Under the pieces are notes generated by a model. That model searched no databases, was not told the DNA's origin, and worked only from the letters and a program-made list of their open reading frames with translations. 64,000 nt of DNA from Methanococcoides seepicolus (lineage in GTDB: Archaea; Halobacteriota; Methanosarcinia; Methanosarcinales; Methanosarcinaceae): the NCBI RefSeq assembly GCF_023684405.1, contig NZ_JAGSOI010000001.1, positions 1 through 64,000 on the forward strand, given 5' to 3'. Of this stretch, positions 30,719-45,081 are shown one piece after another. The translations under genes were made by a program, and so were the position numbers. Numbering within the stretch: the stretch's first letter is position 1; each line of letters opens with the position of its first letter.

Positions 30719-31714
30719 TTATAGATAGTTGATTAAATTCGATATAATATAGATTAACGCCACAGATATTATTACAACAAGTATTGAAGACATACCGATA
30801 ACTTCTGCTGCCTTTTTAATATCTTCTGCCTTTGGCAATGAGAGGCCCTTACCTATAACATAGGTATTGGGTTTCTCAAGCCGGACACCAAGAGTCCCTG
30901 CAATTGCAGCCATCGGATAACCGGAATTAGGAGAAGGCGTTGTCATGCAGTCTGTTGATGCACACCTGAACGCCCCAATATGGTCCAGTCCTTTGCTCTT
31001 CAAGAGAACACTTGAAAGGAAAGAACCTGCCATGATGAACACCACACAGATACGTGCAGGTATCCAGTTAAGCACATCATCGGTCTTTGCTGAGAAATAA
31101 CCAATGTCCCTGTACTTCTCATTCATGTAGCCCACCATTGAATCAAGCGTACTTACCGCTTTGAAGATGTAAGCACCTATAAGGCCGTAAGGGCCGAATA
31201 TCACATAGTAGAACAACGGGCTCAATATACCGTCAACGAAGTTCTCGGAGCAGGTCTCAATGACAGAAGAGGACACCTGCCCTTCGGTTAACTGTGAAGT
31301 ATCCCTGCTCACATACATTGAGAGCTTTTTACGTGCAGATACAAGATCACCTTTTTCCAGTTCACCATAGACTTCCATTGCAGCTTCCAGTAATCTGCGA
31401 ATGGCGAACGTGGATTTCAGGAAATAGGCCTCAATGAGAAGCACTACGAATTCCGGAATGAACGATAGATTTGCGATAAGAAGCACAACATAAGCTATAG
31501 AAGCTGCAAATAAGATGACAATGAGAGCAAATACCACACCATATGCTTTTTTATGTGTGGCTGGCACTTTTTTCTTGAAGAATCCAATAAGATTGCCTAT
31601 CCAGACAACTGGATGCAATGCTGTGGGTGGCTCACCTATCAACAGATCAAAACCTGTTGCCAGAAGGAGCACGAATATCAGATGCCCCGTGTCAGGCAGG
31701 AAAGGTTCGATCAT
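30719..31714 (-). CDS. cbiB: Adenosylcobinamide-phosphate synthase
   Basis: This membrane protein attaches aminopropanol phosphate to cobyric acid. The 331-aa sequence has the family start (FDLLIGEPPTALHPVVWIGNLIGFF), then RKKLSMYVSRDTSQL and FVDGILSPLFYYVIFGPYGLIGAYIFKAVSTLDSMVGY. Late segments are TPSPNSGYPMAAIAGTLGVRLEKP and a hydrophobic tail. Its ATG overlaps the cobD stop as ATGA. Archaeal databases often call it CobD, which should not be confused with the decarboxylase next to it. Confidence 0.93.
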   Translation of the reverse strand: MIEPFLPDTGHLIFVLLLATGFDLLIGEPPTALHPVVWIGNLIGFFKKKVPATHKKAYGVVFALIVILFAASIAYVVLLIANLSFIPEFVVLLIEAYFLKSTFAIRRLLEAAMEVYGELEKGDLVSARKKLSMYVSRDTSQLTEGQVSSSVIETCSENFVDGILSPLFYYVIFGPYGLIGAYIFKAVSTLDSMVGYMNEKYRDIGYFSAKTDDVLNWIPARICVVFIMAGSFLSSVLLKSKGLDHIGAFRCASTDCMTTPSPNSGYPMAAIAGTLGVRLEKPNTYVIGKGLSLPKAEDIKKAAEVIGMSSILVVIISVALIYIISNLINYL

Positions 31715-33204
31715 AAACGAGGCTCCAGCACCTTATCCCACGCTTTTTTCAATTTAATGTCCATATCGCCAGCCTCTGAAAGCACATAGAGAAGCTCTTC
31801 CACAACATCCTTTTCATGAACGAGAACACAATCCTCACAACTCCAGACCTGACCGCCACTGGAGCGGTCGACCCACTTGCCCCCTGTACGTTCATCCTCA
31901 CATCCATAGAAAGGACAGAAACAGAAAGTGCAATCCTGACCGCTGAAATGACATGGGTAATAAGGGCAATCAAGGTTCCCACCAGAAGGAGCTGCATTTC
32001 CACTTTCAAGCATTGAAACAAGATCAGCTTTTGCATCGTCCCTTGCTTTTTCAACAACGACCTTTCCTATTGCCTGTGACAGTCTGTCAGTCTCCTCCTT
32101 GGGACGGACAGCGATACGGACAAAGTCCTCACCCAGGGATGGGAAAGAACTGCAATCCCTTATAAGCACCCCATGTGCAGCCAGACGCTGCGTGAGTTCA
32201 ACAGAATCAAGGGGGGAGGCACTGATATCAACAAGGATATAGTTCACGGTGCTTTGAAGCGGTGTGAACTTGCGTATCCCTGAGATGCGCTCAGTAAGAT
32301 AATTACGGTCGTTTTCAATGGCCTTACGTGATGCCACAAGATACGGACTGTTGCAACCGCCTTCCATGTTAAGCATTGCTATTCCGATCTCCTCGGGAAT
32401 GGAACCGAGATTCCACGAAAGTCTTGCAGTGTTCAATGCATTTGCAATTGTTTTTGAAGCCACACCGAACCCGAGACGGACACCAGGGATAGCAAAATCC
32501 TTAGTAAGAGAGCGAAGAATGAAAAGATGATCGTTATCGATCACAGTATCAGTGATAGTTTGTGAAGGATCGTCCGTAAGTTCGATGAAGGCTTCATCTA
32601 CGAACAAGAGAGTGTTATTGATAACACATCTTTTTGCGAGTGACAGAATATCATCCCTTTTATGAAGCTTACCGGTAGGGTTGTTCGGATTACATACGAA
32701 AAGGATCTTTGCACCCCCAAGCACATCGTCGGAGAGATCAAAGATATCATCCTGTCCTATGTAACGAACATCTGCGCCTGCTACGTTGCATTGTTGTTCA
32801 TATTCGACAAACGTAGGGTGGGGTATCAGTACAATATCGCCCTGATCCACTATCGCCTCTGCCACAAGCCTGATTATCTCACAGGAACCATTGCCCGGAA
32901 CTATGTTCTCGATAGACAGCCCGTTACCCAGAAACCGAACAGCGGCCTTTCTAAATTCAAGATAACGGTTATCAGGATATTGCCCAAATCGCCCCATGGC
33001 ATGCTCTAGCAAGCTGTCAAGGTCAAGCCCGCCTAAAGGATGGTCGAAGGGACTTCCGAGGGGGTTAAGGCTGGCGCTCAGGTCCAGCATCTCCGATGCC
33101 GGGATGCCATACTTGTCAGCCATTTCACGAATAAGCCCGCCATGTGAGGGACAGGCCAATTCTATAATGTTTTCTTTCAGAGGGAGTTCTTTTTCTTGTG
33201 ACAC
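31711..33204 (-). CDS. cobD: L-threonine-O-3-phosphate decarboxylase with C-terminal Cys-rich domain (copy 1)
   Basis: The PLP-dependent N-terminal 380 residues belong to the histidinol-phosphate aminotransferase-like CobD family. They have CNPNNPTGKL, LFVDEAFIELTDD and the PLP Lys in LRSLTKDFAIPGVRLGFG. The last 110 residues hold a Cys/His cluster (CPYYPCHFSGQDCTFCFCPFYGC, WSCEDC), a likely metal site. The equivalent Methanosarcina mazei protein was reported to phosphorylate threonine as well as decarboxylate it, giving the aminopropanol arm. The start is GTG at 33204 with a TATA box close upstream. A paralogue lies at 34-35.5 kb. Confidence 0.9.
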   Translation of the reverse strand: MSQEKELPLKENIIELACPSHGGLIREMADKYGIPASEMLDLSASLNPLGSPFDHPLGGLDLDSLLEHAMGRFGQYPDNRYLEFRKAAVRFLGNGLSIENIVPGNGSCEIIRLVAEAIVDQGDIVLIPHPTFVEYEQQCNVAGADVRYIGQDDIFDLSDDVLGGAKILFVCNPNNPTGKLHKRDDILSLAKRCVINNTLLFVDEAFIELTDDPSQTITDTVIDNDHLFILRSLTKDFAIPGVRLGFGVASKTIANALNTARLSWNLGSIPEEIGIAMLNMEGGCNSPYLVASRKAIENDRNYLTERISGIRKFTPLQSTVNYILVDISASPLDSVELTQRLAAHGVLIRDCSSFPSLGEDFVRIAVRPKEETDRLSQAIGKVVVEKARDDAKADLVSMLESGNAAPSGGNLDCPYYPCHFSGQDCTFCFCPFYGCEDERTGGKWVDRSSGGQVWSCEDCVLVHEKDVVEELLYVLSEAGDMDIKLKKAWDKVLEPRL

Positions 33205-33368: not shown

Positions 33369-33983
33369 TTATACCATTCTGGCCAATAGCATTTCCTCAC
33401 ACTTTGCCAGTTCAACGACCGAGTCCACATTGATCGCAACTTCAGGAATATGAGTCAGATAATCGGAATCCACCTGCTCTTCCTCTATCTTAGCAGAATC
33501 AAGGACATTTATACCCACCGGGACCAGCATTTCACCGTTCTTGTTGAACACTGTACCCGGCCGCAACCCCAGCTCCCGGAAAAGCCCAATAGGAGCATAA
33601 ACTGACATTGCCGGAATGGAACGTTCCTCATAGCTTTCAACTATGGCATCAATATGTTCTGATCCGACCAGAGGGAGGTCCGGCATCAATATCATGACAG
33701 GACCGGTGCTGCCAGCATCTTTGACAGCATTTACCATATCCCCAACATAATTATCACCAGGGGTACGGAGAATGAGAACGTCATCCCCATAGCGATCCCT
33801 GACACACGATTCGGTTTCAGGAGAATATGGAGAGGTCTGAACGAAAACACGTCCTATGTGTTCTGCACCAAGAAGCGAGTCAAGAAGATAACTGATAAGT
33901 GGCCTGTCGATAAGCATCACACATGCTTTTTCCTCCACGCCAAGCCTCTGGGCAAGACCGCCTGCCATAACGATAGCATCCAT
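33369..33983 (-). CDS. cobY: CobY-like guanylyltransferase (copy 2)
   Basis: This 204-aa paralogue of the CobY at 28.7 kb shares MDAIVMAGGLAQRLGVEEKACVMLIDRPLISYLLDSLL, GDNYVGDMVNAVKDA, VMILMPDLPLVGSEHIDAIVESYEE and VAINVDSVVELAKCEEMLL. The catalytic segments appear intact. It starts at ATG 33983 behind GGTGGATGA; a start three codons earlier is possible. It follows cobD copy 2 by 71 bases on the same strand. Whether it works on adenosylcobinamide phosphate or on a variant nucleotide substrate is unknown. Confidence 0.83.
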   Translation of the reverse strand: MDAIVMAGGLAQRLGVEEKACVMLIDRPLISYLLDSLLGAEHIGRVFVQTSPYSPETESCVRDRYGDDVLILRTPGDNYVGDMVNAVKDAGSTGPVMILMPDLPLVGSEHIDAIVESYEERSIPAMSVYAPIGLFRELGLRPGTVFNKNGEMLVPVGINVLDSAKIEEEQVDSDYLTHIPEVAINVDSVVELAKCEEMLLARMV

Positions 33984-34054
33984 TTTAGTCATCCACCATC
34001 AAGAATATGAGACCGATATCTAAAGACATCGGCGCTTAGAACACTAGAAACACA

Positions 34055-35551
34055 TCAAAAATGTGGCACTACTACCTGTTCCCAAGATACTTTGAGGTTA
34101 TCCTCGGTTTCACTGTCGCTCATGAGGATCTTTAGAATCTCCTGAACGACTTCAGGTTTATGCAATATATTGCACTTCTCACAGCTCCAAACTTCACTGC
34201 CCGTGGTACTTTCGATCCAGCGACCACCTGTTTGAGGATCTTCGCAGGGGTAGAAAGGACAGAAACAGAAAGTACAATCCTGACCGCTGAAATGGCAGGG
34301 GTAATATTCACAGGTATTCCTGCAGGCAGGCATGCCAGCCCCGGCACTCTCTATGGTCTCTTTCAGGCGTTCCTCTGCATAATCCTTGCCTGACTCGGTA
34401 AGGACATCACCTATGGCCTGTATGAGATGATCGGTCTCCCCCCTTGTGCGGACCGCGATCCTGATATAGTCATTGTCAAGCAGGTAGAAGGAACTACAAT
34501 CCCTCACAAGGATACCATGAGAAGCAAGACGGGATGTCAGCTCCTGGGAATCCATAAGAAGTTCCCTTATGTCCACAAGAACATAATTGACAGTACTTGG
34601 AAGCGGTTCGAACCCATATATCCCGGACAGGCGTTCTATGAGATATTCCCGCTCTTCTGCGATCATTTCACGAGATGCCACGAGATATTTACTGTAGCAA
34701 CCGCCCTCCATGTTCAACAGAGCAGTACCTACAACATCAGGCACTGAGCCCAGATTCCACGATAGCCGGGCAGTATTGAGTGCTTTTGCCATCTCCAGGG
34801 ACGCAACACCGAAACCCAGACGTATACCGGGGATAGCGAAGTTCTTGGTAAGGGAACGGAGGACAAATAAATAGTTATTAGTGGCTGCTACGTCCGCAAC
34901 GCTCTGGGACGGGTCGGCAAGTTCACTGAACGCCTCATCAACGAACAATAAGGTGGAGTTCATCTCACACCTTTTGGCAAGTTCAAGAATAGAATCCCTT
35001 GAAAGCAGTTTGCCTGTAGGATTATTTGGATTGCATACGAAAAGGATCTTTACATCATTCAGTGCCTCGTCGGTAATATCCATCAGCCCTTCATGCTCAA
35101 AATAACGGATACTGGCACCCATAATCCTGCACTGCTGCTCATATTCATCGAAAGTTGGCTGCGGAATACCTACAACATCACCGCTATTGATCATGCATTC
35201 TGCAACAAGACGGATGGTCTCACATGAGCCATTACCGGGTATGATGTTATCAGCACTTATCCCATCGCCCAGAAAACCGGCTGCAGCTTCCCTGTAGTCG
35301 AGATAGCGGTTGTCAGGATAATTGTACATCCCGTCCCTTGCACTGATAAAAAGTGCCTTGAGGTCAAGACCGTATTCGGGATGTTCGAACGGGCTGCCAT
35401 ACGGATTGAGGCTTGCGCTCATATCGATAATATCAGATTCAGCGATCCCGTATTCCTGCGAAGCCTTGCGGACAAGACCGCCATGGGATGCAGGCACAAG
35501 ACCGATTATGTGCTTTTTGAGGGGTAAATTGATTTTTTTGTCCACATTCAT
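34055..35551 (-). CDS. cobD: CobD-like threonine-phosphate decarboxylase with Cys-rich domain (copy 2)
   Basis: This 498-aa paralogue of the protein at 31.7 kb aligns with it along the whole length. It keeps CNPNNPTGKL, LFVDEAFSELADPSQ, LRSLTKNFAIPGIRLGFG with the PLP Lys, and the C-terminal Cys cluster CEYYPCHFSGQDCTFCFCPFYPC and WSCEKC. It therefore looks functional, not decaying. ATG at 35551 was chosen; a GTG two codons earlier is the alternative. With cobY copy 2 it forms a separate two-gene operon without cbiB, cobS or cobZ. Confidence 0.87.
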   Translation of the reverse strand: MNVDKKINLPLKKHIIGLVPASHGGLVRKASQEYGIAESDIIDMSASLNPYGSPFEHPEYGLDLKALFISARDGMYNYPDNRYLDYREAAAGFLGDGISADNIIPGNGSCETIRLVAECMINSGDVVGIPQPTFDEYEQQCRIMGASIRYFEHEGLMDITDEALNDVKILFVCNPNNPTGKLLSRDSILELAKRCEMNSTLLFVDEAFSELADPSQSVADVAATNNYLFVLRSLTKNFAIPGIRLGFGVASLEMAKALNTARLSWNLGSVPDVVGTALLNMEGGCYSKYLVASREMIAEEREYLIERLSGIYGFEPLPSTVNYVLVDIRELLMDSQELTSRLASHGILVRDCSSFYLLDNDYIRIAVRTRGETDHLIQAIGDVLTESGKDYAEERLKETIESAGAGMPACRNTCEYYPCHFSGQDCTFCFCPFYPCEDPQTGGRWIESTTGSEVWSCEKCNILHKPEVVQEILKILMSDSETEDNLKVSWEQVVVPHF

Positions 35552-35586
35552 CGCCACGCTTTATCGTGCAAAGATAGGAAGAAAAC

Positions 35587-35881: not shown

Positions 35882-35983
35882 GGAGACTTGATCATGTAGA
35901 TCGAACGGACTCTAAATCCGTTCAGCCGGGTTAGATTCCCGGAGTTTCCGCCAAATGGACATGGCTTTCCATTAAGACATTAT
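35846..35983 (+). other. Complementary leader and trailer bracketing tRNA-Pyl (processing helix candidate)
   Basis: Leader GGAAAGCC (35855-35862) pairs perfectly with trailer GGCTTTCC (35963-35970). Going inward, after a bulged G, ATGT (35864-35867) pairs with ACAT (35959-35962), and CC (35869-35870) with GG (35957-35958). Going outward, ATGTC (35849-35853) pairs with GACAT (35976-35980). About 19 base pairs therefore close around the tRNA, leaving 11 bases on its 5' side and 3 after CCA. This is seen directly; a role in processing or protection is inference. Confidence 0.65.
35882..35953 (+). tRNA. pylT: tRNA-Pyl (CUA)
   Basis: This 72-nt tRNA (CCA encoded at 35951-35953) reads UAG as pyrrolysine. 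Its unusual traits are all present: acceptor GGAGACT, only one base between acceptor and D stems, a short D loop, six-base-pair anticodon stem, anticodon CTA at 35912-35914, a 3-base variable loop and a T arm without the usual TTC (GGTTAGATTCCC). Charged directly by PylS, it decodes in-frame UAG in methylamine methyltransferases. pylS follows 114 bases downstream. Confidence 0.98.
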
Positions 35984-36054: not shown

Positions 36055-37317
<1,263 letters not shown>

Positions 37318-37327
37318 GGTGAACATC

Positions 37328-38380
37328 TTGTTTGAAAAAATGGACCAAAATGATCTGGAAGACTATGCTGAGCAGATAATTTCCGGATCAGAGATTTCCG
37401 ATGAGAACCTCAGGGAAATGCTGCAGATAAGCGATCCTTCTGAAATAGAAAAACTGCATTATGTGGCACGCCACATACGGGATAATTTCTTCGGGAACAA
37501 AGTGTTCATGTACAGTTTCGTGTACTTTTCCACACACTGCAAGAACAATTGTGCTTTCTGCTATTACAACCGTGAGAATGACATCGAGAGGTATCGCCTG
37601 ACACTTGAGGACATAAAGAAGATATGCCAGGTCCTCAAGACAGAAGAGATACACATGGTAGACCTCACCATGGGAGAGGACCCCTATTTCCATAACAATC
37701 CTGAACGTCTGGTAGAACTTGTCAGAACAGTGAAGGAAGAAGTAGAAAAACCAATAATGGTATCCCCGGGAGTTGTTGATAATGAGACCCTTATGCTGTT
37801 GAAGGAGAACGGGGCAGACTTCCTTGCACTATACCAGGAGACCTATGATAAGGACCTTTATGGAAAGCTGAGGGTGGAACAATCCTTTGAAGAGAGGATC
37901 AACTCCAGGAACCATGCAAAGAGGATAGGTTATTGCGTTGAGGACGGCATACTGACAGCAGTGGAACCGGACATAGAATCAACCCTTATCTCACTTAGAG
38001 GACTTGGAACATCCGATCCAGATATGGTAAGGGTCATGACATTCCTGCCTCAAAAGGGCACACCCCTGGAAGGAAAGGATGTTGAGGGAAGTGAAGCGGA
38101 ACTCAAGATGATCTCAATACTTCGATTGATGTATCCAAACCTGCTCATTCCGGCATCACTGGACCTTGAAGGTATTGACGGAATGGTGCACAGGCTAAAC
38201 TCCGGTGCCAATGTGGTCACCTCCATAATCTCATCCAATTCAGCCCTTGAAGGCGTTGTGAACTACGACAGAGAACATGCCGAGAGGGACAGGGATGTTA
38301 AGAGCGTTGTCGCCCGTCTGAAGACAATGGGAATGGAACCTGCCGAACAAAGCGATTTCGAGAAGTTGTTGGGGCAATAG
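37328..38380 (+). CDS. pylB: Methylornithine synthase PylB (radical SAM), ending in UAG
   Basis: PylB converts lysine to 3-methylornithine, the first step of pyrrolysine synthesis. The radical-SAM Cys triad is at residues 71, 75 and 78 (THCKNNCAFCYYN). The start is TTG at 37328: GAGGTGA at 37316-37322 is correctly spaced, the first residues MFEKM line up with the M. barkeri start as I recall it, and the length becomes 350 aa, equal to that enzyme. Longer readings overlap pylS. The stop codon is TAG (38378-38380), the codon decoded by this operon's tRNA, and the pylC ATG follows after one base. I found no other gene in the window ending in TAG. Confidence 0.95.
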   Translation: MFEKMDQNDLEDYAEQIISGSEISDENLREMLQISDPSEIEKLHYVARHIRDNFFGNKVFMYSFVYFSTHCKNNCAFCYYNRENDIERYRLTLEDIKKICQVLKTEEIHMVDLTMGEDPYFHNNPERLVELVRTVKEEVEKPIMVSPGVVDNETLMLLKENGADFLALYQETYDKDLYGKLRVEQSFEERINSRNHAKRIGYCVEDGILTAVEPDIESTLISLRGLGTSDPDMVRVMTFLPQKGTPLEGKDVEGSEAELKMISILRLMYPNLLIPASLDLEGIDGMVHRLNSGANVVTSIISSNSALEGVVNYDREHAERDRDVKSVVARLKTMGMEPAEQSDFEKLLGQ

Positions 38381-38381
38381 G

Positions 38382-39470
38382 ATGACGACAGTATGTCTTA
38401 TAGGGGGGAAACTTCAGGGCTTCGAAGTGACATATCTTGCGAAGAAAGCGGGGATGAGAGTTGTTCTGATAGACAGGAACAAGAAGCCCCTTATTTGCAA
38501 TGTTGTTGATGAGCTTTTCTGCTTTGACATAACCCAGGAACCGGACAGGTTCATCGAGATATCAAAGAATGTCGATGCCATTATTCCGGTAAATGAGAAC
38601 CTTGATACACTGAACTTTATAAGGGACATCAGCAACAAGCTTGATTGCCCTGTTCTTTTTGATTTTGATGCGTATCACATCAGCATGGATAAGAAGCGCT
38701 CGAAGGAATATTTTGTTTCCATCGACATACCGACCCCTGGCGACAGACCTTCGCAACCACCTTATTTTGTAAAACCACCCTGCGAGAGCAGCAGTATTGG
38801 CACACGCATAATCTATGATGATAGCGAACTTGCCGATGTCGGACCGGATATGCTTGTTGAGGAGTACCTTGAAGGCGATGTTATCTCACTTGAGATCATC
38901 GGGGATGGAAAACGTTTTGCAGTAGTGAAGGAAACGAAGGTGCATATCGATGATACTTATGACTGTCACAGGATAACCCCGGTAGAGCATGACCCGAAGT
39001 TCAGGGAAATATCATACAAGCTTGCCCAAGGGCTTAACCTTAAGGGTATCATGGATGTGGAAGCCATTGCTTCTGAAAAAGGATTGAAGGTCCTTGAGAT
39101 AGATGCACGTTTCCCAAGCCAGACACCTACGGCAGTCTACCATTCAAGTGGAATCAACCTTGTCGCATTACTTATGCAGGCGTTCACCGAAGGTGTGACC
39201 GAGATAGAAAAGGCGCCTGAGAAAGGATATTGTATCTTCGAACATCTGAAATGGGATAGTTCAGGATTGATACCTGCGGGAGAGCACATACTCTCCATGG
39301 GCGAGCGATACGAACTATTCTATGAGGAAGAGAACCTTGAGATATTCCATTCAAGTGGGGAGAACGATGTATTCACCCTTATCTCAAGGGGCAAGGATAT
39401 AGAAAGTACAGAAGAGGTCCGCAGCAGAGGCATAATGCGGATCGAGGATCATTTTAATGGGGAGTGGTGA
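38382..39470 (+). CDS. pylC: 3-methylornithine-lysine ligase PylC
   Basis: PylC is an ATP-grasp enzyme joining 3-methylornithine to the side-chain amine of a second lysine. The 362-aa protein has an N-terminal Rossmann-like domain (TTVCLIGGKLQGFEVTYLAKKAGMRVVLID). Its ATP-grasp core includes YFVKPPCESSSIGTRII, MLVEEYLEGDVISLEIIG and MDVEAIASEKGLKVLEIDARFPSQTP. It begins one base after the amber stop of pylB and lies in a different frame, so its translation should depend on how ribosomes behave at that stop. It ends just inside the ribosome-site region of pylD. Confidence 0.97.
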   Translation: MTTVCLIGGKLQGFEVTYLAKKAGMRVVLIDRNKKPLICNVVDELFCFDITQEPDRFIEISKNVDAIIPVNENLDTLNFIRDISNKLDCPVLFDFDAYHISMDKKRSKEYFVSIDIPTPGDRPSQPPYFVKPPCESSSIGTRIIYDDSELADVGPDMLVEEYLEGDVISLEIIGDGKRFAVVKETKVHIDDTYDCHRITPVEHDPKFREISYKLAQGLNLKGIMDVEAIASEKGLKVLEIDARFPSQTPTAVYHSSGINLVALLMQAFTEGVTEIEKAPEKGYCIFEHLKWDSSGLIPAGEHILSMGERYELFYEEENLEIFHSSGENDVFTLISRGKDIESTEEVRSRGIMRIEDHFNGEW

Positions 39471-39475
39471 GTTTT

Positions 39476-40255
39476 ATGGCATTATTAACACCTGAGGATC
39501 TGGAAGATCTTTTGAACAAACTTAGACAGAGCAATGAAACGATCAAGGCATCTACCGGAAAGAGTATCACGGAAATATGTGAAGAGGTCTATGGCACACG
39601 CCCAGCCTCGCAAAAGGTTGCAATAGTGCCCATAACAGCAGGCAATGGGATAATAGGCAATTTTTCTTCATCATTGCTCGCAATAACCGAATATTTCGGA
39701 CTTGAAGGTTATATTACAGACCATCCCGACATAACCGGGTATCATCAGGCAGTTTCCGATGGTGCGGACATACTTCTAATGGCGGATGACCACATGTTCA
39801 TCGCCCACAACCTGAAGAATGGAAAGATAGCGGCCAACCATGTATGCACAGGTGTGATCTATTCAGAGATAGCCTCAAGGTTCATCCATGCAGGATCAAA
39901 GGATGTGCTGGTAATCGGCCTTGGCCGTGTAGGTTACGCAGGTGCCGAACATCTGGTGAAGAAAGGGTTCAATGTATATGCCTATGACCCGAACACCGAA
40001 TTCATGGAAAAGGCAATTGGAGAGCTTGGAGTGAACGCTTATGATATGAACGGACCCAAACAGTTCTCCATGGTCTTTGAGGCTACCCCTAACGCCAATA
40101 CAATATCAGAAGGAATGATCGCAGAAAGATGTCTTGTATCGACTCCGGGAATACCCTGCGCGCTTCCACCCGAACTCGCTGAGAACGGTGATATCGACCT
40201 GGTCATGGAACCACTGGTCATAGGTGCCGCAGCAATGCTCTATTCAGTGTTCTGA
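39476..40255 (+). CDS. pylD: Pyrrolysine synthase dehydrogenase PylD
   Basis: PylD oxidises lysine-N-methylornithine to a semialdehyde that closes to the pyrroline ring, giving pyrrolysine. The 259-aa length from ATG 39476 equals the known enzyme; GGTGAG overlapping the pylC stop is the ribosome site. The NAD-binding segment DVLVIGLGRVGYAGAEHLVKKG is in the middle, after a helical N-terminal domain, and ATPNANTIS and STPGIPCALPPELA follow. Four extra upstream residues (start 39464) are rejected. It is the last gene of the operon. Confidence 0.97.
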   Translation: MALLTPEDLEDLLNKLRQSNETIKASTGKSITEICEEVYGTRPASQKVAIVPITAGNGIIGNFSSSLLAITEYFGLEGYITDHPDITGYHQAVSDGADILLMADDHMFIAHNLKNGKIAANHVCTGVIYSEIASRFIHAGSKDVLVIGLGRVGYAGAEHLVKKGFNVYAYDPNTEFMEKAIGELGVNAYDMNGPKQFSMVFEATPNANTISEGMIAERCLVSTPGIPCALPPELAENGDIDLVMEPLVIGAAAMLYSVF

Positions 40256-42574: not shown

Positions 42575-42973
42575 ATGAAAATATGTATAACATCCAGAGG
42601 AACTGACCTTTTCAGCCAGTGTGACCCTCGTTTTGGCAGATGTTCTTACTTTGTCATTGTAGATGATGATACCATGAACTTTGAGACTCTTCAAAACCCA
42701 GGGCCTTTGGCAGAAGGAGGTGCAGGAATAGAGGCTGCACAGGCATTGATAGGCCTTAATATTGATGCAATTCTCACAGGAAATATTGGACCAAATGCAT
42801 TTGCAGTACTGAATGCAGCTGGAATTAAAGTATTTACAGGCATCAATGGTGCAGTCGAAGACACAGTTGTACAATATGTAGAAGGACAGCTAAGCATTAT
42901 AGAGGATGCCAACACTTCTGCTCAACACAAAGTTAACTCAGGATCGAGACCAGAACTTTCTGGACCAAAATAA
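42575..42973 (+). CDS. NifX/NafY-like dinitrogenase iron-molybdenum cofactor domain protein (1)
   Basis: This 132-aa protein has the cofactor-binding domain of the NifB-C/NifX/ORP family: MKICITSRGTDLFSQCDPRFGRCSYFVIVDDD, then GAGIEAAQALIGLNIDAILTGNIGPNAFAVLNAAGIKVFTG. Such domains carry metal-sulfur clusters. The gene is not near nif structural genes; it heads a cluster with two more copies and ferredoxin-MinD ATPases, as in bacterial orange-protein clusters. Here Cys16 in SQCDPRFGRC and Cys22 are candidate ligands. Cargo is unknown. Confidence 0.87.
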   Translation: MKICITSRGTDLFSQCDPRFGRCSYFVIVDDDTMNFETLQNPGPLAEGGAGIEAAQALIGLNIDAILTGNIGPNAFAVLNAAGIKVFTGINGAVEDTVVQYVEGQLSIIEDANTSAQHKVNSGSRPELSGPK

Positions 42974-42990
42974 AATAAGAGGCAAATAAA

Positions 42991-43365
42991 ATGAAAATAT
43001 GCGTACCTTCTGCAAATAATGGCGGATTAGATGATATGGTAGGTCAGCACTTTGGAATGGTCCCTACATACACCGTGATGGACATTGAGCACAACTTAGT
43101 AGAGATAGTGGGAAACACAAGCGAGCATAATGGTGGTGTAGGATTACCACCAGAACTTCTCTCAAAAAAAGGCGTGAACATAATGCTTTGTGGCGGCCTT
43201 GGACAAAAAGCTGTAGACATGTTCAATGAATATGGAATTGATGTTTTTATCGGTGCACAGGGAACTGTGGAGACAGCTATCAATGACTGGAAAGAAGGAA
43301 ATCTTGTCAACCCGACCAGCGAAAATGTCTGTCAGGGCCATGGGCATGATGAAGACCAACACTGA
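42991..43365 (+). CDS. NifX-like protein with His-rich tail (2)
   Basis: The domain is the same as in the previous gene (124 aa): MKICVPSANNGGLDDMVGQHFGMVPTYTVMDIE, GVGLPPELLSKKGVNIMLCGGLGQKAVDMFNEYGIDVFIGAQG. The tail CQGHGHDEDQH is rich in metal-binding residues and could bind nickel, zinc or another soft metal. It starts 17 bases after the first copy and ends seven bases before the MinD-type gene, so it is cotranscribed with both. It is more similar to copy 3 than to copy 1. Confidence 0.88.
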   Translation: MKICVPSANNGGLDDMVGQHFGMVPTYTVMDIEHNLVEIVGNTSEHNGGVGLPPELLSKKGVNIMLCGGLGQKAVDMFNEYGIDVFIGAQGTVETAINDWKEGNLVNPTSENVCQGHGHDEDQH

Positions 43366-43372
43366 AACACAT

Positions 43373-44218
43373 ATGAAAATTGCTATCGCAAGTGGAAAAG
43401 GCGGCACCGGTAAAACCACCGTTGCCGTAAACCTTGCACTTTCAATACCTGATGCACAGCTGATCGACTGCGATGTCGAAGAACCCAATTGCAATCTATT
43501 TTTGAACAAAGAACTGGAGCGCATCGCTGAATCAAAGATCACTGTTCCGAATATCGATGAGGAACTTTGCACACACTGCGGAAAATGTTCCGAAATGTGC
43601 CGTTTCAATGCAATTGCGACCCTACCAGAAAAAGTTATCCTATTCCCAACTCTCTGCCACAGCTGTGGAGGGTGTATTCTAGCTTGCCCGGAATATGCCA
43701 TTTCCGGAAAGGAAAAGATTACAGGCATCATCAGCAGATCCTCCAATAAGAAAGATCACCCCATGCTCTATGAAGGAGTACTAAATATTGGAGAAAGCAT
43801 GGCATCCCCGGTCATAACTGAACTAAAGAGAAGCATTGAACCGGGAATTCCAACAATAATCGATTCCCCACCTGGAACTGGGTGCCCTGTTATGACCACA
43901 TTAGAAGATACGGATCACTGTATACTCGTAACAGAACCAACTCCATTTGGATTACATGACCTGAAACTTGCAGTGAAAATGGTAAAAATTATGAATATAC
44001 CATTCGGAGTCATCATAAACCGAAGTGAACAAGAAAATTGTATCATAGATGAATATTGCGATCAGGAAAACATTGAGGTCCTAATGAGAATACCCCTCAA
44101 TAAACGCATTGCAGAACTATATTCAGATGGAATTCCCTTTGTTGAGGAAATGCCTGAGTGGAAAGAAAGATTCACTAATTTATTTGAGAGAATAGTCAAC
44201 AAAAAGGAGCTGGCATGA
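43373..44218 (+). CDS. MinD/Mrp-type ATPase with inserted ferredoxin domain (1)
   Basis: This 281-aa deviant-Walker P-loop ATPase starts MKIAIASGKGGTGKTTVAVNLALS. After the first 60 residues there is a 2x[4Fe-4S] ferredoxin insert (CTHCGKCSEMCRFNAI, CHSCGGCILACPEYAI), then IIDSPPGTGCPVMTTLEDTD and LVTEPTPFGLHDL. Proteins of this kind work in pairs with NifX/ORP-like proteins, probably loading or reducing a cluster using ATP. ATG at 43373 is chosen because the conserved P-loop start lies there; longer readings overlap the previous gene. The next ATPase overlaps it by four bases. Confidence 0.9.
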   Translation: MKIAIASGKGGTGKTTVAVNLALSIPDAQLIDCDVEEPNCNLFLNKELERIAESKITVPNIDEELCTHCGKCSEMCRFNAIATLPEKVILFPTLCHSCGGCILACPEYAISGKEKITGIISRSSNKKDHPMLYEGVLNIGESMASPVITELKRSIEPGIPTIIDSPPGTGCPVMTTLEDTDHCILVTEPTPFGLHDLKLAVKMVKIMNIPFGVIINRSEQENCIIDEYCDQENIEVLMRIPLNKRIAELYSDGIPFVEEMPEWKERFTNLFERIVNKKELA

Positions 44219-45081
44219 AGGAACTCGTAGTTATCAGTGGAAAAGGTGGAACCGGTAAAACCACAATAACAGCTTCATTTGCAGCAATGGCACAAAATGC
44301 AGTGATAGCTGACTGTGATGTCGATGCACCGAACCTTCATCTTGTTCTAAGACCAAGGATTGTAGAAACGAACCCTTTCTATGGCATGGATAAAGCAGAA
44401 ATATGCCTTGACAGATGTATCAAATGTTACAAATGTCAAACTGCCTGTAAATTTAATGCTATCGATGATGACCTGATCGTAAATCAACATAAATGTGAAG
44501 GCTGCGGAGTATGTGAATATGTTTGCAAAGCCAGTGCTATAAATATGATCAAAAGCCGATCAGGCGATGTTCATTCATCCATCACTGACCATGGAACAAT
44601 GGTCCACGCAGAACTGGAGATTGGGGAAGAAGCAAGCGGAAAACTTGTAAGTGCTGTCAAAGAACGTACACGTTCGATAGCACTGGAAAATAAAGCCGAA
44701 CTTATAATAACGGACGGCCCACCCGGCACAGGTTGCCCTGTACTTGCAACAATAACAGGAGCTAGCCTTGCATTGATCGTGACCGAACCCAGCTTATCAG
44801 GGATGCATGATCTCGAAAGGGTCTTGCAGGTTACAGAACACTTCGACATTCCTTCCATTGTCTGCATCAACAAGTACGATATCAATGAGAAGAACGCAGG
44901 GAAAATAGAAGAGTTCTGTCACAAAAGAGAGATAGAAGTTGCAGGAAAGCTTCCTTATGACCCATCGCCCAATATGGCAATGAGGGAAGAGACAACCGTT
45001 GTTGAATACAGGAAGAATGTTCTTTCAGAAGGGATCAAAGCATTATGGGAACGTGTTGTTTCAGAGCTTGAGAAACAGTAA
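44215..45081 (+). CDS. MinD/Mrp-type ATPase with inserted ferredoxin domain (2)
   Basis: This is the 288-aa sister of the preceding gene: MKELVVISGKGGTGKTTITASFAAMAQ, ferredoxin insert CIKCYKCQTACKFNAI and CEGCGVCEYVCKASAI, then IITDGPPGTGCPVLATITGASLALIVTEPSLSGMHDLERV. All eight cluster Cys are present. The pair probably forms a heterodimer, as MinD-like ATPases dimerise on ATP. It starts at an ATGA overlap. ORP-cluster ATPases of Desulfovibrio have the same fused layout. Confidence 0.9.
   Translation: MKELVVISGKGGTGKTTITASFAAMAQNAVIADCDVDAPNLHLVLRPRIVETNPFYGMDKAEICLDRCIKCYKCQTACKFNAIDDDLIVNQHKCEGCGVCEYVCKASAINMIKSRSGDVHSSITDHGTMVHAELEIGEEASGKLVSAVKERTRSIALENKAELIITDGPPGTGCPVLATITGASLALIVTEPSLSGMHDLERVLQVTEHFDIPSIVCINKYDINEKNAGKIEEFCHKREIEVAGKLPYDPSPNMAMREETTVVEYRKNVLSEGIKALWERVVSELEKQ

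Follow-up and report, generated by a model that had tools for sequence, protein, structure and literature searches.

A retained UAG codon at the end of pylB in the Methanosarcinaceae and its possible role as a pyrrolysine sensor ahead of pylC

Introduction

The closest described case is pylB itself. According to those parts of a review that deal with the pyl genes (PMC2933860), the pylB of M. barkeri ends in TAA, whereas that of Methanosarcina mazei, M. acetivorans and Methanococcoides burtonii ends in TAG; a version of the M. acetivorans gene carrying TAA instead is reported, from another paper that the review cites, to be functional in E. coli. The same pages give 20-30% as the level at which M. 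acetivorans reads through a UAG in a reporter. The bare fact of a TAG-ending pylB is therefore known and in print, although the relevant parts of that review hold no discussion of the spacing to pylC, of an open tail or of regulation. A second body of work concerns the coupling of neighboring genes. Archaeal ribosomes are able to terminate and reinitiate across gaps that include one of a single base and, in Haloferax, a native +1 pair is coupled, a gap of 13 nt costs 60%, and one of 22 nt abolishes reinitiation, as set out in the sections of PMC10666635 on spacing.

The DNA considered here, referred to as the window, is the whole stretch of 64,000 nucleotides from Methanococcoides seepicolus that was analyzed. 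It contains a pylB gene that closes with TAG one base ahead of pylC. We computed here the family-wide count of such ends, how they differ from the ends of pylS and pylC, and the open tail beyond the codon, and found no earlier statement of them; control of pylC by UAG is absent from the titles and abstract openings of the matches listed, a set that covers only a minority of subscription papers. The junction bears on how archaea balance UAG as a stop against UAG as pyrrolysine, and on how they set their supply of pyrrolysine. It combines a UAG kept in a biosynthetic gene over several genera, a spacing that fits coupling, and a tail that is open in one branch.

The pyl locus and its pylB-pylC junction

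The genes in the window lie in the order tRNA-Pyl, pylS, pylB, pylC and pylD (Table 1), and the prerequisites for decoding UAG as pyrrolysine, namely pylT, pylS and pylBCD, are all present in the genome. The NCBIfam matches of PylS, PylB, PylC and PylD all exceed their cut-offs. The match of PylB (cut-off 348.2 bits) runs over residues 7-348 and covers the whole of the model, and the 350 residues that precede the UAG correspond to the length of a solved relative, 3t7v.

The initial annotation had described a CAA-TAG end with the pylC ATG one base beyond it, and had calculated that reading UAG as pyrrolysine would add this residue and 42 more before a TGA inside pylC. Both descriptions are confirmed when the sequence is read in the pylB frame. 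The closing TGA is a by-product of the Val-Asp codons of pylC, which is why it was set aside as independent evidence.

Table 1. Coordinates of the pyl genes and of the elements of the pylB-pylC junction in the window.
Feature	Coordinates	Strand	Basis
pylT, tRNA-Pyl (anticodon CTA), UAG-decoding	35882..35953	+	ARAGORN
pylS, pyrrolysyl-tRNA synthetase, TGA end	36067..37317	+	NF007083, 728.5 bits
pylB, methylornithine synthase, TTG start, 350 codons, then TAG	37328..38380	+	TIGR03910, 583.6 bits
GGGG, perhaps a Shine-Dalgarno-like core for pylC	38371..38374	+	column counts, 53 genomes; function inferred
CAA, last sense codon of pylB	38375-38377	+	sequence read
UAG codon closing pylB, stop or pyrrolysine	38378..38380	+	sequence read; kept in 51/53 +1-spaced genomes
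Single G between TAG and pylC start	38381	+	sequence read
42-codon readthrough tail, pylB frame, overlapping pylC out of frame	38381..38506	+	
TGA closing the extended PylB (393 residues)	38507..38509	+	sequence read
pylC, 3-methylornithine--L-lysine ligase, ATG (38382-38384) 1 base past TAG	38382..39470	+	TIGR03909, 586.9 bits
pylD, 3-methylornithyl-N6-L-lysine dehydrogenase	39479..40255	+	TIGR03911, 403.8 bits, scan from 39464

The surroundings of the locus hold some further genes. Two similar CobD/HisC-like aminotransferases, both on the minus strand (31711-33204 and 34055-35557), flank a MobA-like nucleotidyltransferase (33369-33992), and both carry a C-terminal Cys-rich zf-like domain. 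On the plus strand, two adjoining dinitrogenase iron-molybdenum cofactor (NifX-like) proteins are encoded at 42575-43365; next comes a MinD/ParA-like ATPase that bears 4Fe-4S motifs, and a second such ATPase is seen by eye at 44215-45081.

pylB ends among relatives

A search for pylB in 111 Methanosarcinaceae genomes gave some match in 104. With the 7 genomes without a match and a further 6 whose matches were all weak (E of 3e-8 or higher) left out, 98 readable pylB ends remain, of which 53 are TAG, 35 TGA and 10 TAA. The stop lies one base ahead of pylC in 53 of the 98 genomes, and at this +1 spacing it is TAG in 51, TAA in two (G071 and G078) and TGA in none. TAG at +1 is found in all 11 Methanococcoides, all 8 Methanohalophilus, 24 of 25 Methanosarcina and one of two genomes of genus g12, the rest of the 53 being G003, two genomes of genus g4 and four of g5. 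At other spacings TAG occurs in just two genomes, G052 and G065, and no +1-spaced genome has a sense codon at the UAG position. The comparison of stop codons and spacing that the initial annotation had called for across the family is thus in hand; the TAA or TGA ends at the same spacing that it had named as evidence against its idea are limited to the two TAA genomes, neither of which belongs to the genus.

The 45 genomes without +1 spacing differ in their arrangement. PylB extends 1-29 residues further in 42 of them, mostly by 2 or 13, and in 32 the gene overlaps pylC in an ATGA-type junction with a UGA stop. Methanolobus and its kin close pylB with UGA in such an overlap and therefore lack a UAG sensor of the kind considered below. 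Among the PylB ends that were compared with the tail by eye, no likeness to it was evident. Beyond the family, 61 of 392 genomes drawn from the phylum pass the cut-off for pylB, and the only one from outside the Methanosarcinaceae is G128, which has two copies that both end in TAA; no match to pylC was found in the 5-7 kb around these copies.

Around the codon itself, the 53 +1-spaced genomes show an uneven pattern. The sequence CTGGG just 5' of the stop is strongly conserved, and columns -7 to -5 are nearly invariant. The bases between GGG and TAG vary, as does the base 3' of TAG, whereas TAG itself hardly does. The start codon of pylC is ATG in 31 of these genomes, TTG in 15, CTG in 5 and GTG in 2, while the UAG hardly changes. 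In Methanosarcina, the pylC start is TTG or CTG in 20 of 25 loci; such non-ATG starts might favor restart by a terminating ribosome over free initiation.

Since 51 of the 53 genomes keep TAG at the same spacing, the codon is not a one-off accident. How far its retention goes beyond drift was gauged by parsimony on a tree of pylB and pylC. The pylB stop requires 2 changes (51 +1 genomes with long enough sequence), against 9 for the stop of pylS and 7 for that of pylC (50 genomes). At 39 two-fold sites of pylB the third base requires 2-14 changes, so that the pylB stop ties with the slowest of these sites and is no slower. By this yardstick, which takes no account of TAG being disfavored, retention of the stop is at the slow edge of neutral. 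All in all, we consider that the UAG is probably kept by selection.

Rarity of TAG as a stop codon

The pylB end stands out against a background in which TAG is seldom used. It had been claimed that every other gene called ends in TAA or TGA, and this holds for 61 of the 62 open reading frames (ORFs) of at least 100 amino acids that a simple ORF caller finds in the window, pylB being the sole exception. On the whole 116-kb contig TAG closes 2 of 110 ORFs, and in 1.04 Mb of genome G017, with the same minimum length of 100 amino acids, it closes 32 of 894, several of which are by eye methyltransferase reading frames with in-frame Pyl codons, antisense ORFs or transposases. The accompanying argument, that avoidance of UAG makes chance an unlikely source of the pylB codon, is in keeping with this rarity taken with the retention in 51 of 53 genomes. 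Within the same pyl loci, TAG ends pylS in 0 of 95 cases, pylC in 0 of 95 and pylD in 3 of 47.

The +1 spacing can be dismissed as a cause of TAG, as all 19 other +1-spaced pairs from the window and a G017 sample end in TGA or TAA, a count that takes the nearest possible start and includes the pylS-pylB pair twice. Near pyl in 12 Methanosarcina loci, TAG occurs in 2 of 15 gene groups that are each present in at least 4 loci. One is pylB, of which the caller grouped 4 copies, each ending in TAG; the second has TAG in 3 of 5 copies. The only control stop common to the whole genus is that of a DUF167-like gene, which is TAG in 3 of 11 genomes compared with 11 of 11 for pylB. In our contig this gene lies outside the window (contig C1, 110807-111190), and its TAG is followed immediately by a TAA back-up stop. 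Two other candidate controls were dropped: a phosphoglycerate-mutase-like gene, which turned up in 1 of 11 genomes, and a NeuC-like gene, for which no clear set shared between genomes emerged. These three gene names are presumed, having been assigned by eye.

The open tail beyond the codon

In the frame that follows the UAG, the first base of each tail codon is the wobble base of a pylC codon, and a T at that place creates a stop wherever AA, AG or GA comes next. The tail runs without a stop for 42 codons in Methanococcoides (11 genomes) and G003 and for 39 in Methanohalophilus (8 genomes), and not one of the 20 genomes in these three groups has a stop within the first 38 tail codons. Synonymous redraws of codons for 11 of the 20 sequences, with G017 and window codon usage, produce equally long tails in 0.9-3.5% of draws. 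For a single genome this length is not exceptional. Of 786 genes, 5.3% stay open for 42 codons or more in the tail frame, and comparable gene pairs have a tail of at least 39 codons in 2 of 35 cases (median 6). The weight of the open tail lies in its retention over 20 related genomes rather than in its length in any one of them.

That retention can be followed column by column. Of the danger columns, those in which T at the wobble base would create a stop, the first 7 carry no T in any of the 20 genomes. The share of columns that never carry T is 9 of 51 for the rest of pylC, 12 of 57 for pylB and 7 of 19 for the harmless columns of the tail, and the chance of a 7-column run is accordingly 5e-6 at the rate for the rest of pylC, 1e-5 for pylC and pylB pooled, and 9e-4 for the harmless columns. 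The longest never-T run elsewhere is 3 in later pylC and 2 in pylB. If only places that would make UAA or UGA are counted, over codons 2-38, T occurs at 0 of 117 in contrast to 48 of 131 in Methanosarcina, while at harmless places of the tail it is common (109 of 263 in Methanococcoides). Simply counting stop-making T within the tail gives 0 of 161, compared with 473 of 1488 in later pylC, but this count and Fisher tests were set aside, as a tail by definition contains no stops; the run-length chance is used in their place.

Outside the three groups the picture is different. Methanosarcina tails are 14-23 codons long, and stop-making T is found at 55 of 167 places over codons 2-41, which amounts to no avoidance of stops. 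No tail among the 53 +1-spaced genomes is shorter than 14 codons. GGT at the first danger point is absent from all 52 +1 genomes with a Gly-Gly-Lys-type motif and is found elsewhere in 13 of 36 (g2, g10, g11 and g14) and 2 of 9 (g6-g8), although these counts ignore shared ancestry. Because an open run of this kind across 20 genomes is unlikely, the sequences suggest translation of the tail in the three groups that keep it open.

Probable use of UAG as a sense codon in Methanococcoides

The decoding of UAG seems to reach beyond the methyltransferases. Three genes were picked from the 32 TAG ORFs of G017 for a frame that continues past the TAG. In a VWA-domain gene (L191:13643-15268) and a HerA-like gene (L192:7748-9031), orthologues have a sense codon at the TAG position in 9 of 9 cases each, and in a short gene that we take to encode an HTH protein they do so in 4 of 4. 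The codons found in these genus relatives specify Ser, Ala, Glu or Trp, and in the VWA and HerA genes the C-terminal domain matches span the TAG positions. The HerA-like gene of G016, another Methanococcoides genome (C3:135616-136899, L211), also has one in-frame TAG, in a different place from that of G017. The TAGs of the VWA-domain and HerA-like genes are likely to be non-catalytic pyrrolysine sites and, from the comparison of in-frame TAG with orthologous sense codons, UAG is therefore probably read as pyrrolysine beyond the methyltransferases in this genus. An archaeal "Pyl code", in which all TAG codons stand for pyrrolysine, was reportedly described in 2025, and the use of UAG as sense in some archaea would fit the in-frame TAGs of the G017 and G016 genes.

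Readthrough of the pylB UAG at a meaningful level in Methanococcoides is, in our estimation, very likely. Because UAG seems to be sense in some ordinary genes of the genus, reading through the codon may be what normally happens there, and not something triggered by an excess of pyrrolysine.

A possible switch and its alternatives

The explanation that we favor treats the pylB UAG as an old, ambiguous codon that is probably kept by selection. Where the release factor wins, translation would stop after 350 residues with a complete PylB enzyme, and the ribosome, standing one base ahead of the pylC start, could reinitiate there. Where Pyl-tRNA wins, pyrrolysine would be inserted and the ribosome would move 42 codons into pylC out of frame, ending 129 bases on, from where restart at the beginning of pylC is not expected. 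The pool of charged tRNA-Pyl would then set the share of stopping and reading through, yielding a product-sensing setting of PylC relative to PylB in which pylC output would drop as pyrrolysine rises. The +1 gap, present here and in 52 more of the 98 genomes, is within the short range of termination-reinitiation pairs. The codon, its spacing and its retention are read directly from the sequences, and translation of the tail in the three groups has statistical backing; we infer the reinitiation at pylC, the reduction of PylC by readthrough, and this as the reason for the UAG. The switch as a whole is put forward tentatively, as a possibility that falls somewhat short of an even chance, and that control of pylC is why the codon has been kept is, if anything, slightly more doubtful. 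The combined proposal, in which PylB, the first enzyme of pyrrolysine synthesis, would carry pyrrolysine itself in Methanococcoides and Methanohalophilus and the UAG at its end would act as a translational sensor, with pyrrolysine supply choosing between short PylB with coupled PylC and tailed PylB without it, would be more doubtful again.

This feedback between stop-and-restart and readthrough had been suggested in the initial annotation, and it fares unevenly. In its favor are the retention of TAG at the same spacing, a gap that falls in the reinitiation range given in the spacing sections of PMC10666635, and a tail that has stayed open in Methanococcoides, G003 and Methanohalophilus, as would be expected if it is translated. 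Against it, the genera with an ATGA overlap manage without the codon, readthrough in Methanococcoides may be the usual outcome, Methanosarcina keeps TAG in 24 of 25 genomes yet has short tails without stop avoidance, and G071 and G078 have TAA at the same spacing. Also against it are third-base retention that merely ties with the slowest two-fold sites, long tails that are not rare in single genomes, and the reported function in E. coli of the M. acetivorans gene carrying TAA (PMC2933860). Were UAG read as sense almost every time in Methanococcoides, the PylC:PylB ratio could hardly respond.

In a rival explanation, the extended PylB is the purpose of the arrangement. UAG would be a plain sense codon in Methanococcoides, G003 and Methanohalophilus, giving a protein of 390-393 residues with pyrrolysine at position 351 and a polar tail with its own job in regulation, stability or partner binding. 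The open tail in 20 of 20 genomes and the TAGs inside ordinary G017 genes agree with this, as does the fact that in genomes with other spacings PylB mostly (42 of 45) continues 1-29 residues past this point. Synonymous change in pylC is also lower under the tail across the three groups (0.363 versus 0.464, p 0.011), with no such drop in Methanosarcina or Methanolobus. The Methanococcoides rate taken separately (0.213 versus 0.339) was not relied on, since the low zone in this genus extends past the tail to about codon 100. Residues R359, G364, R366, S367, C371 and C379 do not vary among the 12 sequences from Methanococcoides and G003, but the pylC protein partly fixes the residues of the tail, C379 is missing from 6 of 8 Methanohalophilus tails, and tail length varies among genera. 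The solved enzyme 3t7v is a 350-residue form, and a structure model of the extended protein, built from 12 close sequences, is too poor to judge the tail (mean pLDDT 55.8, tail about 24-34). On balance, we regard this explanation as unlikely. A little less unlikely, though still improbable, is that the UAG is simply tolerated, readthrough being harmless with a tail that ends inside pylC, so that selection never removed the codon. This is near the published reading of UAG as serving as a stop, in the pylB passages of PMC2933860; it would also accommodate the TAA of G071 and G078, the borderline third-base retention by parsimony, and the roughly 5% of genes that have long tails by chance. It sits less well with the rarity of TAG elsewhere, with the 3 of 11 TAG at the genus-wide control stop against 11 of 11 at pylB, and with an open-column run over 20 genomes that is unlikely to have arisen fortuitously. 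The strong conservation of CTGGG ahead of the stop raises one more alternative, in which the bases are held for some other function, for instance as a Shine-Dalgarno site or an RNA element acting on pylC, with the UAG arising as a side effect. However, the flanking bases (the GGG-TAG gap and the next base) vary when TAG hardly does, and TAG is absent from the 19 other +1 pairs. A search for a PYLIS-type element after the UAG gave no Rfam match at the gathering score, the only one there being at chance level (E 3.1), and no stable RNA structure is predicted there in the window sequence (folding z -0.58). We consider this alternative very improbable.

To return to the switch, the junction reduces the question to a single base, TAG or TAA in the genetically tractable Methanosarcina, and to a single peptide in Methanococcoides.

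Comparison with known systems

The published account of pylB, in the parts of PMC2933860 that cover it, concerns the same gene, codon and position, and its M. burtonii belongs to the same genus; it differs in treating UAG as a plain stop and in comparing four species. The archaeal termination-reinitiation pairs, as presented in the relevant sections of PMC6728339 and PMC10666635, share the +1 spacing of Haloferax HVO_0685/HVO_0686 with pylB-pylC, but no recoding of the stop is described in those sections and the coupling of pylB to pylC is a prediction. In the Haloferax tests of coupling the stop was shifted upstream, whereas readthrough of pylB shifts it downstream (PMC10666635, same sections); by analogy, a stop moved downstream into the next gene would presumably also prevent restart.

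The methyltransferase genes mtmB, mtbB and mttB, as described in reviews, resemble pylB as UAG-containing genes of pyrrolysine-using archaea that are decoded by tRNA-Pyl. Their pyrrolysine is in the active site, whereas the PylB enzyme is complete before the UAG and its tail overlaps the next gene. The frameshift of release factor 2 is an example of autoregulatory recoding, in which the frequency of a decoding event reports on the product. The proposed pylB switch would be alike in this respect, but unlike release factor 2 it would have the product amino acid itself decode a terminal stop and act on the next gene. This arrangement is hypothetical; if true, it would be a pyrrolysine feedback loop written in the recoded codon.
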